Assembly (NCBI GenBank): GCA_905182985.1
Contig: CAJJDN010000107.1
Location: 76,578 to 140,577 of the forward strand
From: Paramecium sonneborni
Lineage: Eukaryota; Ciliophora; Oligohymenophorea; Peniculida; Parameciidae
DNA: 64,000 bases
Reading direction: 5' to 3'
Under the pieces are notes generated by a model. That model searched no databases and was not told the DNA's origin. It saw only the letters and a list, made by a program, of their open reading frames with translations. Within the stretch, counting starts at the first letter, position 1. Each line of letters begins with the position of its first letter. The translations under genes and the position numbers were made by a program. Shown piece after piece: positions 29,022 to 61,342 of this stretch.

Positions 29022-30109
29022 TATTTATTTAATACAATGCATTTCTATAAATAATGTATTTCTTAATATTTAAAACTTTTTAATAAGGAAAAAATTGACA
29101 TTTTTTTATTCTATACTATCAAGGATAAACTTATATGCTAAAAGAAATTTAAAGTAGTTTAAATAATTTTAAAGTGGCTCTAATCTAGAATTTTATTTTC
29201 TTTATAAATAAGTTTTGAGCAGTTGAAATTTATAAAATATTTTATGTTAAAAATTAGTACTTCCAAGAAATAATTATCTATTAATCAATATCTCTAAAAC
29301 TAAATTTATTCATATTAATATTTGATATAAATTATTATTATTCTTAAATTTTCTATTTTCTTAAAATCAAAGTACTGATTAAATCAATTCATGAATATAT
29401 CATACTAAACTCAAAAAATATATGAAAATATAATAAAAATATTCGAATAAATCATAATCTTTTGTATACTCTAACTTAAAATAATTATCAGATGTATTTT
29501 AATATGACGATTCAAATTTATTTAAGATAAACTTTTTTGTAAAAATGGTATTAATTCTTTAGTTTAACATAGAGAATCCTTAATGTTTAAAATTAGATAA
29601 TATAATGATCTCAATATAAATTACAAACTTATTAAAATCAGATTTTTAATAAAAATTTTATAAATAATTCAAAATTTTAAGAATATCATAATTCACTAAA
29701 ATTATCCAATTAAATTCTTGGGCTCAAAGAAAGCAAATCGAAATAAGCTGCATGTTTGGAATGTATTGATGATTTTGCATTCAATAAAAGATAATTACTA
29801 GGATGTTGAGATTATATAGGCATGAGATGGAAATCTTCTGAAAGTTCTCTGAAAATGAAAAATTCAATGCTGCTGTAACCATTCGTATTTTATTTTATAT
29901 AAATTTAATTTGTTGGTCCTAATTTTCTCACAATAAGAATTGCCATTGGTAGATTTAGCTAATATACTTATTCAGCATTATGTCTCAATTCAGATAGAGT
30001 AATTGGATTTATGAATGGAAGTCCTTTTATTGCATCTTTGCTGAAACTTGATCCTTGAAATTAAATTTTAATGCGAAAATATTATTTCTTTATAGAATTT
30101 ACTTCTGCT
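29022..30109. repeat. direct duplication 1, copy A (1,088 bp)
   Basis: Repeated at 30111-31198, separated from it by the single N at 30110. Compared by eye the copies agree over their whole length, starting at TATTTATTTAATACAATGC and ending at TTTACTTCTGCT. An exact overlap abutting on one N is what an unmerged contig join produces. The left flank of copy A and the right flank of copy B are unique sequence. Confidence 0.92.
29686..30109 (-). pseudogene. truncated second copy of the 3' end of the pseudo-histidine-kinase gene
   Basis: This is the 3' portion of the frame at 30775-32558, including its TGA at 29686-29688, cut off by the N at 30110. It has no start and no upstream exons. It exists only because of the 1,088-bp duplication and should be regarded as an assembly shadow, not a gene. 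Confidence 0.85.
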
Positions 30110-30110
30110 N

Positions 30111-31198
30111 TATTTATTTAATACAATGCATTTCTATAAATAATGTATTTCTTAATATTTAAAACTTTTTAATAAGGAAAAAATTGACATTTTTTTATTC
30201 TATACTATCAAGGATAAACTTATATGCTAAAAGAAATTTAAAGTAGTTTAAATAATTTTAAAGTGGCTCTAATCTAGAATTTTATTTTCTTTATAAATAA
30301 GTTTTGAGCAGTTGAAATTTATAAAATATTTTATGTTAAAAATTAGTACTTCCAAGAAATAATTATCTATTAATCAATATCTCTAAAACTAAATTTATTC
30401 ATATTAATATTTGATATAAATTATTATTATTCTTAAATTTTCTATTTTCTTAAAATCAAAGTACTGATTAAATCAATTCATGAATATATCATACTAAACT
30501 CAAAAAATATATGAAAATATAATAAAAATATTCGAATAAATCATAATCTTTTGTATACTCTAACTTAAAATAATTATCAGATGTATTTTAATATGACGAT
30601 TCAAATTTATTTAAGATAAACTTTTTTGTAAAAATGGTATTAATTCTTTAGTTTAACATAGAGAATCCTTAATGTTTAAAATTAGATAATATAATGATCT
30701 CAATATAAATTACAAACTTATTAAAATCAGATTTTTAATAAAAATTTTATAAATAATTCAAAATTTTAAGAATATCATAATTCACTAAAATTATCCAATT
30801 AAATTCTTGGGCTCAAAGAAAGCAAATCGAAATAAGCTGCATGTTTGGAATGTATTGATGATTTTGCATTCAATAAAAGATAATTACTAGGATGTTGAGA
30901 TTATATAGGCATGAGATGGAAATCTTCTGAAAGTTCTCTGAAAATGAAAAATTCAATGCTGCTGTAACCATTCGTATTTTATTTTATATAAATTTAATTT
31001 GTTGGTCCTAATTTTCTCACAATAAGAATTGCCATTGGTAGATTTAGCTAATATACTTATTCAGCATTATGTCTCAATTCAGATAGAGTAATTGGATTTA
31101 TGAATGGAAGTCCTTTTATTGCATCTTTGCTGAAACTTGATCCTTGAAATTAAATTTTAATGCGAAAATATTATTTCTTTATAGAATTTACTTCTGCT
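30111..31198. repeat. direct duplication 1, copy B (1,088 bp)
   Basis: Second copy of 29022-30109. It continues without a break into the coding sequence upstream on the minus strand (to 32558), so this is the copy that belongs to the intact gene. Confidence 0.92.
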
Positions 31199-32558
31199 TG
31201 TTCCAATATAATTTCAATTTCTTAACTGTATTCAGTTAAATAATATAGAAGATTGAGAAATAATTATTTCAGTTGTTTTTAATCCTAAAAAACAATATCC
31301 TTTCTAAGTTTATTGATTATAGAATAATTGAACTTCTTACTCTAATAAAAATAAGACTTTATTTCACTCAAAATTTCTTCTAAGAATTGAATGAAATTAA
31401 ATTTTTGAATAATAGATCTTTAGAAAGAAGAATTAAGATTAAAAAAATCTTTTATATTCTAAAAATCATTATATGCCTTTGAGATTTTACTTTGTACCTT
31501 CTTATACATTCGTAAATCTATTTTATTATATTTAACTTTTTGATATTTGTCTAAGCCTTTGAAGTAGATCAAACTCATTTTAACTTAGGATTGAAATATT
31601 TCATTAATTGTTTCCAAAGCTTATTGAAATATTTTATATCTCAATTTAAGTTCTTCAATAAAAACATCCTTTTTATTTTAAGATATTAAAATAATGGCAC
31701 TTGGCACTTCTCCAAAATACTTGAATATTGATATATTATAATTTTCTTAGTTTTATACTCCTTACAATTTAATCAAAGAATCAATTTAGAATCTATTCAT
31801 ATAATCCTTAAGCTTTTCAGGATTAATAAGAAAATAGAACAAAAACTTCTCCAAACTCATCTTAGCATCTTAATATATCTCTCCTTAAGATTTAAAATGT
31901 GTTTGAGATTCTTAATCCTTTATAAGAACTTTCATATTTCTTATTTAAGAAATAAATTAAGACTATTACTTAATTGTGACATTGTCTTAATCATTATATT
32001 TGCTTAGAAACATTTAATTTTTTTCTCTTTTATAACTAACTATATATAAGGTTATTCCACTTTAATTTATCAATTATTTCTCGGCATTTTAATGTTTTAT
32101 CAATTACATATATTCTTATCTAGATATTTATTCAGTTTTATAAAGATAAATGAGATGAAGTGTTAAATAAACCAAAAATATAATCATTTATTCCCATATT
32201 TCTTCTTTTAAATTTGGCTAAAAGATTTGTAATAAAATGTAAATCGAAATATGGATGAAACATTTTTACATAAAAGTTGCCTAATTCAGCACTCTATAAT
32301 AATATGGAAAATACATGATGTTGTTGCCAATGCTAACATATATCCATCTATGTAACTTATTTATTAAAATGTTACACTCAATATTTTTTGTAATGATTTA
32401 TAATAATTAAATATTGTCATAAAGATTATAATAGTGTTATTGAGATAACATTGCTCCTATCCATCAATATTTAGTTTCACACTGATTATAAGTAGTATCA
32501 AACCTATTCCACAAATACAAAGTGAAATCCAACTTTATTTATATGCACTTGATATCAT
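30775..32558 (-). CDS. membrane-anchored degenerate histidine kinase (pseudo-HK A)
   Basis: The N-terminal part has several hydrophobic spans (SWISLCICGIGLILLII, NNTIIIFMTIFNYY, MIIFLVYLTLHLIYLY). The soluble part keeps the order of a ciliate hybrid-type histidine kinase but with lost catalytic residues: the H-box position reads IFQSQVKMSLIYF (His replaced by Gln), a dimerisation helix has YNDFQNIKDFF then KFNFIQFLEEI, the N-box helix reads DQKQLKQLFLNLLYYLTEY (no Asn), the G1 position lacks DTG, and the end RKLGPTNQIYIKQN...SIEFFIF matches the last HATPase strands. It is homologous along its length to the gene at 54803-56727. N-terminal introns (about 34 and 52 nt) and the exact start are uncertain. 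Confidence 0.7.
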
Positions 32559-33089
32559 CACATACAGAAGTATCAATATAACTAATCCTTACTAAAGTTT
32601 TAATAACTACTATGACAGTTCTTTCTTTCGATTTTAATATCGACTTTCTATTTATTTATCTGAAAAGGAAAGTGATAAATAATTCATAATTTATATTTTT
32701 AATAATTTATTAAATTAATCTCATTCATTTTTTGTACATCCAAAATTAATCCTTCTACACACTCTAATTTTGAAGAATATCTTGAGATAATCAAATATTT
32801 ACTAAATTATTTTTAGTTCTTTTATCTCAAAAAGTTATATTAAACTTATCACATTTTATAAGAAAAATAGGATTAAATTAATAATAATTCTTTTTTTACT
32901 CTTAATATTATTTATACTAATATATTGTAAAACATCTTAATTATGATAATCAAAATTGTTTTTAAATTAAATACTTAGAGTTTATCAAATTATTTATTTA
33001 ATAAAAGAGTTCATATTATATGATAATTATTTTTAGGGCAATCATTTATTGTAAATACCATTTATTGTAAATACATATAATTATAAAGC
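32559..33089. other. intergenic region, no gene seen
   Basis: 531 bp of A/T-rich sequence. The pseudo-HK frame may extend a little upstream of 32558 (a further hydrophobic stretch LVILILLYVM is in frame); beyond that nothing is supported. Confidence 0.45.
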
Positions 33090-43443: not shown

Positions 43444-44527
43444 AAACATTTATTTAAGAAGTTACTTAATTTAATATTGAACAAAATTAGCGTAAAAAAT
43501 CAAATTTATACTTGAAAAGAAAATAAATTATCAAGATTGTTTTTAACAAAAGATAGAAAAAAAAATTAAATAATGTTAATGTTAAAAATGATACTTGATT
43601 TTAATGATAAATCCTCAGTAATAGTAAAGTTAATCACTTCAATAAAGAAATTATAATTATGCTATAAAAAAAGAACTAGAATATATTAATATAAAGATTT
43701 TAAAAAGTTGATAATTTGATGAATTTATTAATTTTCAAAAATATTTTAAGTTGTAACTATAATATACCAAAAATTTTAAAATTGTTTTTATGATATAGCT
43801 TTCATAAATAATTGATTGTATTTTTTATATAGATAATGCTGTCGAAGATATTTCTAAGGAATCTATTAAATAAACTAATTTAGTTCTTTAGTTTTTGAAA
43901 GATGATGAAATAAATTAAATTGACGAAATACAACAAAAAGTACAAACTTGATATTCAATATACTTTATAAAATTGGATACCTAAGTAGTTTTATCAAATT
44001 TCATTCATACGTTGGAAAATAACGTAAAATAAGTCAAATTATATAGCGTAAAATTTTTGTAAAAAATTAGAAAAATAAATATTTTTATTTTTAATTTTAA
44101 GAAAATAATGGAAGATATATTTGGTTAAAATATTAATCTTTTGGATTATAAATTTAAAATAGATAGAACACATAACAATATCTTTTAGGAGGAATGAAAA
44201 TATTAACAATTAGATTGAATTGTGTGTTTATCAAAAAAAAGCAGAATAGAATAATAGAATTATAGAATAATAAAATAATTTTAATTAAAATATTTTTGAA
44301 AAATAAATAGAGTAAAGTAATATGAAAGTAAACAGTAAGAAATAAAGATGAATTTCAAAATTTAAGATTAGAAAAACAATAATTATATAGTCTATTAAAT
44401 TTTCATTAAAAGGATTGTTATAGAATTTATAAAAATAAGAAAGCAGTTTTTCATTATATAAATCAAAGTATTAGATTGGGATCGAGTTTGTCTTTAATAA
44501 AATGTGTTGTTACATGTAAAATAAGTA
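43444..44527. repeat. direct duplication 2, copy A (1,084 bp)
   Basis: Repeated at 44529-45612 with the single N at 44528 between them. Both copies start AAACATTTATTTAAGAAG and end GTAAAATAAGTA, and I see no difference between them. The content is A/T-rich; a plus-strand fragment near 43833-43950 (DNAVEDISKESIKQTNLVL) looks weakly coding but is isolated. Confidence 0.92.
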
Positions 44528-44528
44528 N

Positions 44529-45612
44529 AAACATTTATTTAAGAAGTTACTTAATTTAATATTGAACAAAATTAGCGTAAAAAATCAAATTTATACTTGA
44601 AAAGAAAATAAATTATCAAGATTGTTTTTAACAAAAGATAGAAAAAAAAATTAAATAATGTTAATGTTAAAAATGATACTTGATTTTAATGATAAATCCT
44701 CAGTAATAGTAAAGTTAATCACTTCAATAAAGAAATTATAATTATGCTATAAAAAAAGAACTAGAATATATTAATATAAAGATTTTAAAAAGTTGATAAT
44801 TTGATGAATTTATTAATTTTCAAAAATATTTTAAGTTGTAACTATAATATACCAAAAATTTTAAAATTGTTTTTATGATATAGCTTTCATAAATAATTGA
44901 TTGTATTTTTTATATAGATAATGCTGTCGAAGATATTTCTAAGGAATCTATTAAATAAACTAATTTAGTTCTTTAGTTTTTGAAAGATGATGAAATAAAT
45001 TAAATTGACGAAATACAACAAAAAGTACAAACTTGATATTCAATATACTTTATAAAATTGGATACCTAAGTAGTTTTATCAAATTTCATTCATACGTTGG
45101 AAAATAACGTAAAATAAGTCAAATTATATAGCGTAAAATTTTTGTAAAAAATTAGAAAAATAAATATTTTTATTTTTAATTTTAAGAAAATAATGGAAGA
45201 TATATTTGGTTAAAATATTAATCTTTTGGATTATAAATTTAAAATAGATAGAACACATAACAATATCTTTTAGGAGGAATGAAAATATTAACAATTAGAT
45301 TGAATTGTGTGTTTATCAAAAAAAAGCAGAATAGAATAATAGAATTATAGAATAATAAAATAATTTTAATTAAAATATTTTTGAAAAATAAATAGAGTAA
45401 AGTAATATGAAAGTAAACAGTAAGAAATAAAGATGAATTTCAAAATTTAAGATTAGAAAAACAATAATTATATAGTCTATTAAATTTTCATTAAAAGGAT
45501 TGTTATAGAATTTATAAAAATAAGAAAGCAGTTTTTCATTATATAAATCAAAGTATTAGATTGGGATCGAGTTTGTCTTTAATAAAATGTGTTGTTACAT
45601 GTAAAATAAGTA
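44529..45612. repeat. direct duplication 2, copy B (1,084 bp)
   Basis: Second copy of 43444-44527 directly after the N at 44528. From 45613 the sequence is unique again. Same structure as the duplications at 29022 and 59404. Confidence 0.92.
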
Positions 45613-54802: not shown

Positions 54803-56727
54803 TCAGAATTCCTGAATAGAGTTTAATTATACAATCGGAACCTGATCAAAGTATTCAGAATAGACTTTAGCCAAACTCGATGTTGTTAGAATATTGTCTT
54901 TTGGATAAAATGATATTATTGGTAACAAATGATAATTCTCTTCCAGGGAATTAAATATTTAAAACTCCATAAAATTTCTATTCATCTCATTCTAATTTAG
55001 AGTTAATTTATCATGAGGTCCTATTTTCCTTATTATCAACAATGATATTGGCAATAACAAATCAAATCTCTTTTAACTATTATGCCTCAACTCTCCTATT
55101 GTTTAAGGATTTATTATTGGTAAATTATTTAGAGCAGCTTTACTTAAATTATGACCTTCATAATCAATCCTTATTTTTATTGACATCTATTAATTGGATT
55201 CATCCTTCACTTATTGTAAAGTTATATGGATAAAATTTGAATGATTATGTTTTGATCCTGATTGTTTACCTAAAATAAAAAAAAATAAGTTTAAAAATAA
55301 TTGTTTCAGTTATCTTTAATCCTATCTCACGTATGTATCTGAAATTTTGCAATCTATCGAAAAAAATAATCCTTTATCATCTCCGAAAAATCTTACTACA
55401 TGCTAGTAAATTGATTCAATAAATTCCTTTATGTCAAATTTCTGTATTAAACAACGTTAAAATTCTTTGTTTATACTAAAGTAATCCTGTATATTTGAAA
55501 AATCATTATAGCTTTTCAATAAATTGCTATTTACTTTTCTTAATAATTTATTAATGAATACAATATTTTTATTTTTCTATTTGTTATTATAAATCCATTA
55601 AAAGGAAATTAAACTAGGTTTTACATAATCTCTAAACACATCACTAATATAATCTAATGCCTTCATTGTTATCTTATTCTTTAAATTAAGTTAATCAATA
55701 ACATTATCTTTCTTATTTTCAATTAACAAAACTAAAGCACATGGTTTTTCTTAATAAAATTTCACTACTTTTATTGTATAACTTTCATGATATAAAAATC
55801 CCTTTAACATATATGAATCTTTATGTTCAGATTAATGAATTAAATGCATGATTTATTTTTTCCTATTTGTAAATTCATAAAACAAAAACATCTCTAATGT
55901 CATATTATCCTGATTTTCTAAGATCTCCTATGAAGCAAGTTAAGTAAATCTTTTTATGTTATCATACTAGGAGACTTTTGTGTTTCTTATTTTATCAATA
56001 AACTCATCCTAAATCTACTCCGTAATATGATGCTCCCTATTCTTTTAAACTAGAATCAGCTTATTCATAGGTGGATTATAACTGATGAGGAAACTCTCAA
56101 TATCATTATAAGTCTAGATATTATCTTCTAAAATTTTTTAAGTATTTGCCTAAATAAAAACTTATCTCCTAAAACTCTCAAAAGTATAACAATAATGAAT
56201 ATAAATGCATAATTCAAACAGATGTAAAATTAATTATTCCCACAATTAAATATTTGGATTTCTAAATATTGTAATTTGAAATGTGAAAATTACCACTAAG
56301 ATTAATTGCTTCTTGGAATAGCTTAGTGTATTTATTAAACTATTTATTTTAAATTAATTCATACGCCAAAATTGTTAAAGCTTGAAAGTAGCCATCTAAT
56401 GAATAAGTTTAGAGTTATAATTCCTTCTCTTAAAATACTGAAGAAAAAGTTATATAACACTAATGAAAGAAATAGTAATAAGTCTTTGAAATATCTATTT
56501 GATGATGAGGTGCATTTTAGATTTAAAGCATAAAGTATACTACATAATATTAACACAGTGAGTAAAAGCCAATCTGCCCTCATAATTTTTAATGAAATTT
56601 GGAATACAACCAATGGCAAAATAATCCATTTCTGAGTTTTTTGATAATTTTTATATACATTTGTTATCTCTTTCTAATATTCATATTCCATTTCTTAATC
56701 TTCAAAACTTTAACTAAAAAATTTCAT
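54803..56727 (-). CDS. membrane-anchored degenerate histidine kinase (pseudo-HK B)
   Basis: About 600 residues. N-terminal spans: WIILPLVVFQISLKI, WLLLTVLILCSILYAL, LLLFLSLVLYNFFFSIL and YQLFELCIYIHYCY. Then a PAS-like linker and a helical pair where a kinase has its H-box: DVFRDYVKPSLISF keeps the Pro but has Arg for His. SYNDFSNIQDYF and KFDIKEFIESI match the helix after the H-box. The ATPase part is recognisable by RQDQRQLKQLFLNLFFFILG (N-box without Asn), IRIDYEGHNLS (DTG position altered), LLIIRKIGPHDKLTL and FMEFQIF. Phosphotransfer is therefore unlikely; a sensor/scaffold role is inferred. Start 56727 opens the frame; internal introns are only partly placed. Confidence 0.7.
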
Positions 56728-59403: not shown

Positions 59404-60372
59404 GTTTTTTCAAAGACTTTACATCATTAAACTATTAATAGAGAAATTTAATAGAGTAAAAATATTATAGAATTCGAATGCCTAATTTCGAATTTAATTT
59501 ATGATCTTAGAAAAATTACAAATTAAATCTCATTGAATACAAAAGTAATGTGTAAATAAATAATATATTTTTTATTATTATAATTATTAGCGAATTTATT
59601 AAGGAGAGATTATATTACGAAATTAAGAGAAATCATAAATTGCTTTTTTAAATGCATCCTGTTATAATGGAATTCTTTCATATAAGTGAAACTGTAGATG
59701 ATATATTTTATTTTTGACTCATTAATTAAGCTTATGAATGAGGTTTAGAATATTTTAATAATTTAACTAAACATAAGTAATTACATATTTAAAAGTTAAA
59801 TTAAAGGGAGAATAATCATAAAATAACAATAAACCTTTACTCTAAACAAAAAATAATTTTTTAAGAACCAAAGAATTATAAAGCGGTTAAGATATATCAT
59901 TTATAATTAAGGATTGACTAATAACTTTAAATTAAAATTTTATGGCTCCCAATTAATTTTGAAGATATTCATAAAAGTTTGTTACAGCTTTCAACATATA
60001 TAAATATTTATGAAATTTTAAAGTATCTAATTTAGGAATAATTTTGGTAAGCATTGAATAGGATTGCAATTTAAGATATAATTTAATAGTTTGTAAGGAA
60101 TTTATAAATATATCTAATAATATTAAGTATCATTTTTCAAGAATATTTATAAGTAATGGAGATCACTTTTGAATAAATGAATATTAATTTAACTTTGATG
60201 GAATGTTTTGATTATAATCATATAATTTGTAAAATAATATAAATTGAATATCATAAGGTGAATGATATTATTTAGAAATTTAATTATTTATAAATTTAGA
60301 CTTCTTCTTATCTCTTAATAAACTTGTTTAATTGTAAATAAACCAATTTCAAATTATTTTTTGTTAATATCT
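59404..60372. repeat. direct duplication 3, copy A (969 bp)
   Basis: Repeated at 60374-61342 with the single N at 60373. Both copies begin GTTTTTTCAAAGACTTTACA and end TTGTTAATATCT, and no difference was seen by eye. No coding sequence is affected. Confidence 0.92.
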
Positions 60373-60373
60373 N

Positions 60374-61342
60374 GTTTTTTCAAAGACTTTACATCATTAA
60401 ACTATTAATAGAGAAATTTAATAGAGTAAAAATATTATAGAATTCGAATGCCTAATTTCGAATTTAATTTATGATCTTAGAAAAATTACAAATTAAATCT
60501 CATTGAATACAAAAGTAATGTGTAAATAAATAATATATTTTTTATTATTATAATTATTAGCGAATTTATTAAGGAGAGATTATATTACGAAATTAAGAGA
60601 AATCATAAATTGCTTTTTTAAATGCATCCTGTTATAATGGAATTCTTTCATATAAGTGAAACTGTAGATGATATATTTTATTTTTGACTCATTAATTAAG
60701 CTTATGAATGAGGTTTAGAATATTTTAATAATTTAACTAAACATAAGTAATTACATATTTAAAAGTTAAATTAAAGGGAGAATAATCATAAAATAACAAT
60801 AAACCTTTACTCTAAACAAAAAATAATTTTTTAAGAACCAAAGAATTATAAAGCGGTTAAGATATATCATTTATAATTAAGGATTGACTAATAACTTTAA
60901 ATTAAAATTTTATGGCTCCCAATTAATTTTGAAGATATTCATAAAAGTTTGTTACAGCTTTCAACATATATAAATATTTATGAAATTTTAAAGTATCTAA
61001 TTTAGGAATAATTTTGGTAAGCATTGAATAGGATTGCAATTTAAGATATAATTTAATAGTTTGTAAGGAATTTATAAATATATCTAATAATATTAAGTAT
61101 CATTTTTCAAGAATATTTATAAGTAATGGAGATCACTTTTGAATAAATGAATATTAATTTAACTTTGATGGAATGTTTTGATTATAATCATATAATTTGT
61201 AAAATAATATAAATTGAATATCATAAGGTGAATGATATTATTTAGAAATTTAATTATTTATAAATTTAGACTTCTTCTTATCTCTTAATAAACTTGTTTA
61301 ATTGTAAATAAACCAATTTCAAATTATTTTTTGTTAATATCT
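60374..61342. repeat. direct duplication 3, copy B (969 bp)
   Basis: Second copy of 59404-60372 immediately after the N at 60373; unique sequence resumes at 61343 and leads into the PP2C gene. Confidence 0.92.

Follow-up and report, generated by a model that had tools for sequence, protein, structure and literature searches.

Pseudo-histidine kinases are mostly known singly, as in the case of DivL and some plant receptors. DivL of Caulobacter crescentus is described as being without kinase and phosphatase activity, as binding an ATP analogue weakly and as binding a phosphorylated receiver, and it reportedly retains the H, N, G1, F and G2 boxes save for a Tyr in place of the His (PMC4211667). 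The subfamily II ethylene receptors of plants are described as having an ethylene-binding membrane domain, a GAF domain and Ser/Thr kinase activity in vitro, and as retaining a degenerate histidine-kinase domain whose activity has no clear role (PMC4730734). For ciliates, a greatly expanded family of 'atypical histidine kinases' has been reported (PMC3341644), and histidine kinases are reported to be up-regulated in symbiont-bearing P. bursaria (PMC4029085). Here, we analyze a stretch of 64,000 nucleotides from Paramecium sonneborni (the window; positions 76578-140577 of contig CAJJDN010000107.1, hereafter C107), to which all coordinates refer unless a contig is named, and in it the minus-strand gene at 54803-56727 (gene B) and its paralogue at 30775-32687 (gene A), both members of an expanded eukaryotic family in which the catalytic boxes have been replaced alike throughout.

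We favor, with modest confidence, the reading that gene B encodes one of a family of membrane-anchored Paramecium pseudo-histidine kinases that would not bind ATP in the manner of a kinase, that would hold the ATPase-like CA domain in a fixed shape and signal through the two-helix DHp domain, and in which the former ATP lid would dock a partner. Sequence comparison and modelling establish the relatedness to kinases, the domain order, the loss of the catalytic residues and selection at the level of the family. DivL may serve as the nearest worked example of how a pseudo-histidine kinase is used, as a likeness in working and not in membership: the Paramecium family has also lost the N-box Asn, the G1 Asp and the G2 glycines and, unlike DivL, comes in 21 copies with a hydrophobic N-terminal part. 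The subfamily II ethylene receptors are likewise eukaryotic membrane receptors with a degenerate kinase domain, a comparison made outside the membrane parts; where they have a GAF domain, the Paramecium family has a weakly PAS-like sensor.

Reading frames were translated with the ciliate code (table 6), in which TAA and TAG encode Gln and TGA is the sole stop codon. Long open frames on the minus strand cover 54803-56629 in gene B (P0002, 608 aa) and 30775-32451 in gene A (P0001, 558 aa). The two proteins are identical at 178 of 518 positions (34%, E 1e-74) in an alignment that begins at the last membrane segments and reaches the C-terminus, which bears out the first-pass annotation of gene B as a second pseudo-histidine kinase homologous to the one at 30775, and the motifs quoted there as common to both (LPxINPxT..ELRHN, I-x-RKxGP, EFxIF and YFD) are present in both. 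A reading of gene B as one open frame up to 56727 is rejected, as a TGA lies about 121 codons in from 56727 and both an intron and a deletion in exon 1 alter the frame. The gene starts upstream of P0002, at 56727, and a 25-base intron (GTATGA...AAATAG) was placed at 56364-56340 by eye from the frame change, the intron size and the P. tetraurelia orthologue P0004. The features of gene B are as follows.

56365..56727, minus strand: exon 1, membrane part, from frame reading and comparison with P0004 and the copy on contig C118
56340..56364, minus strand: intron of 25 bases, inferred by eye
54803..56339, minus strand: exon 2, running from the last membrane segments through the PAS-like domain, the DHp helices and the CA (HATPase-like) domain to the stop codon TGA
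55697..56161, minus strand: PAS-like domain and the end of the helix before it (core residues 62-216)
55640..55642, minus strand: D330 codon, most likely the column of the lost phospho-acceptor His
55631..55633, minus strand: Arg333 codon, proposed in the first-pass annotation as the site of the lost His
55277..55279, minus strand: F451 codon, in place of the second N-box Asn
55160..55162, minus strand: Y490 codon, in place of the G1 Asp
55079..55111, minus strand: NPQTIGELRHN, conserved family-wide, at the place of the ATP lid
55016..55030, minus strand: RKIGP, after the lost G2 box, with R, G and P invariant in 21/21

From sequence and modelling, the layout common to the family is a hydrophobic N-terminal part with three to about five membrane segments by hydropathy, varying by member, followed by a weakly PAS-like domain, a two-helix DHp domain and the CA domain; the family thereby shares with catalytic histidine kinases the DHp two-helix bundle with a Bergerat (CA) fold after it. 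The 21 members drew a list of 21 Pfam families at E values up to 10, in a search whose HMMER filters drop most matches above about 0.1; neither HisKA nor HATPase_c is on this list, and single-sequence searches of Pfam and of PDB sequences gave no relevant match. The relation to active kinases is drawn instead from profile alignments (hhalign) with shuffled controls, by which the groups of canonical Paramecium kinases nearest to the core profile are S (95.6%) and T (93.4%). These canonical kinases, 30 loci in the same genome, are homologous to the family over DHp and CA and keep the N, G1 and G2 boxes in 30/30; none of the profile alignments with their groups extends to the membrane part of the family. 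Fold matches include the plant phytochrome kinase-related domain and RetS (8isj, 6dk8), a likeness at the level of the fold only. Matches of the family hidden Markov model to kinase gene models with filters off, at E values down to 3e-9, were discounted because composition bias exceeded the scores.

The catalytic residues are gone throughout the family, as counted in columns of the 21-gene alignment. The second Asn of the N box (NLxxNA) is replaced in 21/21, by Phe in 13, Tyr in seven and His in one, while the first Asn is kept in all; the claimed loss of this Asn in both window proteins is thereby confirmed (F451 in P0002, Y404 in P0001). The Asp of the G1 box (DxGxG) is replaced by Tyr in 14 and Phe in seven members, the first Gly of this box is kept in 13/21 and the second in 0/21, and no member has a Gly at columns 427-434, where the G2 glycines (GxGLGL) would be expected. 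Proteins of four other species have Phe or Tyr at the N-box position and Tyr or Phe at the G1 position in 7/7. Because the N-box and G1 changes are common to all 21 genes, the simplest history is a single ancestral loss.

The phospho-acceptor His has been lost in both window proteins as first proposed, whereas the residues then named for its site, Arg333 and Gln287 (column 238), are probably wrong by three. Alignment with five kinase groups puts the His at core residue 235 with S, T and Y and at 239 with M, and gives no placement with F. The ranges aligned with HK853, in which the acceptor is His260 according to the titles of structure entries, have a start offset of 24-27 residues and would point to core 233-236 if the start of the helix is free of gaps. 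Core residue 235 is D330 in P0002 and E284 in P0001, the most likely acceptor column as judged from these alignments. Within columns 226-251, His occurs in 2/21 at column 239, in 1/21 at column 240 and in 0/21 at 235, so that loss of the acceptor in at least 19/21 members stands under either register. The two members with His at column 239 form subfamily D (L013, L016), and P0006 has it as well; in these proteins the His lies four residues past the likely acceptor column, in an FKHQVRISL-like context that resembles an H box.

The claim that ELRHN sits where the ATP lid would be is supported: the motif comes after the G1 position and before the G2 helix, with N412, P413, E/D418 and N422 fixed in 21/21. 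Past the lost G2 box, the R, G and P of the RKIGP segment are identical in all members.

Selection was estimated as the ratio of nonsynonymous to synonymous substitution rates (dN/dS) under a codon model on duplicate pairs, which we infer to be ohnologs from their paired contigs. The ratio is far below 1 in all eight estimable pairs: 0.160 for the B pair, 0.071 for A on C107/C118, 0.066 for A on C74/C88, 0.064 for D, 0.083 and 0.074 for the two E pairs, 0.154 for G and 0.113 for H. Synonymous sites were saturated between genes A and B, the comparison suggested in the first-pass annotation, as well as between B and D and in the C pair, and these gave no estimate. Ohnologs of P. aurelia are reported to average a Ka/Ks of 0.05 (PMC10195154), so that the family is constrained, if somewhat less than typical. 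Purifying selection on the family is supported by these codon comparisons, and the proposal of selection for a non-catalytic function is supported in this form, as in the pairs of both window genes; the loss in two paralogues, offered as the argument for it, does not amount to two independent witnesses, since the changes are found in all 21 genes. Within the eight pairs, 632/4040 positions differ overall; the G2 helix (8/144) and the N-box helix (10/128) differ least, the lid (38/264) is near the mean and the DHp helices differ at 87/658. Across the family, the highest regional means of weighted relative entropy are those of the G2 helix (3.01), the N-box helix (2.29) and the lid (2.24). Constraint on an old active site that now holds new residues would be expected from a changed function and not from plain decay.

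The window copy of gene B may be an exception to this constraint. Relative to the C118 copy, its exon 1 lacks 11 bases at about 56443/56442, a deletion that shifts the frame in the membrane part, and P0004 has residues at the deletion site that the window copy is without. The deletion adjoins TTC repeats, and the neighboring GTA is not found in the C118 copy. Splicing of a 43-base GTA...TAG stretch beside it, at 56438-56396, would hypothetically restore the frame; 43 bases is long for a Paramecium intron. The deletion might reflect the birth of an intron within coding sequence, an early stage of decay or an error in the sequence. Private core residues number 36 in the window copy, 50 in the C118 copy and 16 in the P. 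tetraurelia orthologue, with branch lengths in the tree of 0.086, 0.058 and 0.034, respectively. The frame-shifting deletion together with the longer branch makes relaxed constraint or early decay of the window copy possible.

As to mechanism, the proteins would neither bind ATP in the manner of a kinase nor autophosphorylate, and aromatic side chains would occupy the former Mg and adenine positions, locking the CA domain in a single shape. The membrane or the PAS part may receive a signal that the DHp dimer relays, and the lid surface (PxINPxxxxELRHN and RxLGP) may dock a partner, for which an active histidine kinase or a receiver domain is the likeliest candidate; this mode of working would be DivL-like without the protein being a DivL. 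Candidate partners are available, as the same genome gives at least 39 HATPase_c and at least 50 receiver matches. A search of the genome for an Hpt domain gave no match, despite the many receivers and kinases; introns or unspliced frames could conceal one.

Other readings account for part of these observations. The proteins could act as decoys or heterodimer subunits, pairing through DHp with active Paramecium histidine kinases and lowering or redirecting their activity without a docking site of their own; the plentiful active kinases and the fairly conserved DHp helices would suit this, but the strongest conservation lies in the CA domain and not in the dimer helices, and the DHp similarity to the sampled active kinases is visible at the profile level only, which makes this rather unlikely. 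It is also unlikely that the old ATP pocket now binds another small ligand with the aromatics as part of the new site, because bulky residues at the Mg and adenine positions would more simply plug the pocket and no match points to a ligand, even though the G1 position is aromatic in 21/21, the N-box position in 20/21 (His in one), and the helices around both are the most constrained. Continued phosphorylation by another chemistry, like that of the GHKL Ser/Thr kinases PDK and BCKDK, is hardly credible: the matches to these enzymes span mainly the common CA fold, and PDKs too require the N-box Asn and the G1 Asp, both of which are gone in 21/21.

Decay, by which the genes would be former kinases on their way out whose frames stay open by chance in a ciliate with one stop codon, is unlikely for the family as a whole, and we give it little credence. 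TGA alone does terminate the frames, and the case for decay draws on gene B, where the dN/dS of the pair is three times the ohnolog average and the window copy has both the exon-1 deletion and a longer branch than its P. tetraurelia orthologue. The low ratios in 8/8 estimable pairs argue against it, as do the relatives in four more species and the cores of 20/21 members, which run for 500-522 codons without TGA, partly by construction as core ends were set at TGA codons. The exception, H_C115, has a further frame change, with a core of just 410 codons the first part of which is out of register.

The pair described in the first-pass annotation is real, yet it is part of a larger set. A search of the genome (91.5 Mb, 289 contigs) with P0002 gave 24 matches, which after removal of two assembly duplicates and joining of split matches correspond to 21 genes; four more genome queries from distant members added no further gene. 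The genes group as eight subfamilies (A 4, B 2, C 2, D 2, E 4, F 1, G 3 and H 3), and 15/21 lie in clusters on C107, C118, C74 and C88. In a tree of 20 of the 21 genes and seven deposited proteins, all seven subfamilies with more than one row are supported 100/100, forks between most subfamilies are open and joins of long branches are flagged; the grouping of P0004 with the window copy of gene B has a support of 93/92, short of the tool's star. P. tetraurelia, P. primaurelia, P. pentaurelia and P. octaurelia have relatives as well, and protein searches with gene B, gene A and the family alignment gave relatives solely in the P. aurelia group, by a method that requires shared 5-residue words and may miss others. 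The matched records give the deposited members as 'unnamed protein product' or 'transmembrane protein'. Among the entries listed by searches of PubMed Central on histidine kinases, pseudokinases and phosphorelay in Paramecium and ciliates, neither titles nor abstract openings describe the family; the gene lists of PMC3341644 were not compared. More tentatively than the reading of gene B itself, we propose a history in which this apparently unnamed receptor family had its catalytic core closed by aromatics in a common ancestor, converted the ATP lid to a docking surface, became a purely conformational sensor and radiated into the eight subfamilies. Such a candidate receptor family would offer a model for the conversion of a phosphotransfer sensor into a non-catalytic one, in an organism in which RNA interference by feeding is routine.

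The deposited P. sonneborni proteins match the two window genes at 98% and 100%, and the genome is taken to be the somatic one of this species. For gene A, which starts upstream of P0001 at 32687, a 23-base intron was placed by eye and the deposited protein P0007 (629 aa) agrees with it; the deposited protein for gene B, P0003, would require 53 bases without a terminal TAG to be spliced out, and we prefer the 25-base intron to its splice ends. A simple gene finder lost exon 1 in many members, and statements on exon 1 are based on deposited proteins and on reading by eye. Several deposited models look mis-spliced, P0003 near the exon-1 junction and P0010 and P0011 where they diverge from their relatives after ALATTSC. 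The remaining features of the window are listed here.

30775..32687, minus strand: gene A, paralogue of gene B (P0007, 629 aa; 23-base intron by eye)
31240..31242, minus strand: gene A Y404 codon, in place of the second N-box Asn
31147..31149, minus strand: gene A F435 codon, in place of the G1 Asp
29022..30109, minus strand: assembly-junction duplicate and no third gene, repeating 30111-31198 exactly over 1088 bases next to a single n

An apparent third family member at 29728-30096 was rejected, as it lies in this duplicate, and a separate member at C88:97374-98297, in locus L012, was rejected as likewise an assembly duplicate. The window has single n at three positions in all (30110, 44528 and 60373), each of which parts exact tandem copies, of 1088, 1084 and 969 bases, which span 29022-31198, 43444-45612 and 59404-61342. 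These copies are most simply unmerged assembly overlaps that create false duplicate genes. The n at position 1587 of L012 (C88:96700-102900) marks a junction of the same type, at which the C88 gene of subfamily C is partly duplicated.
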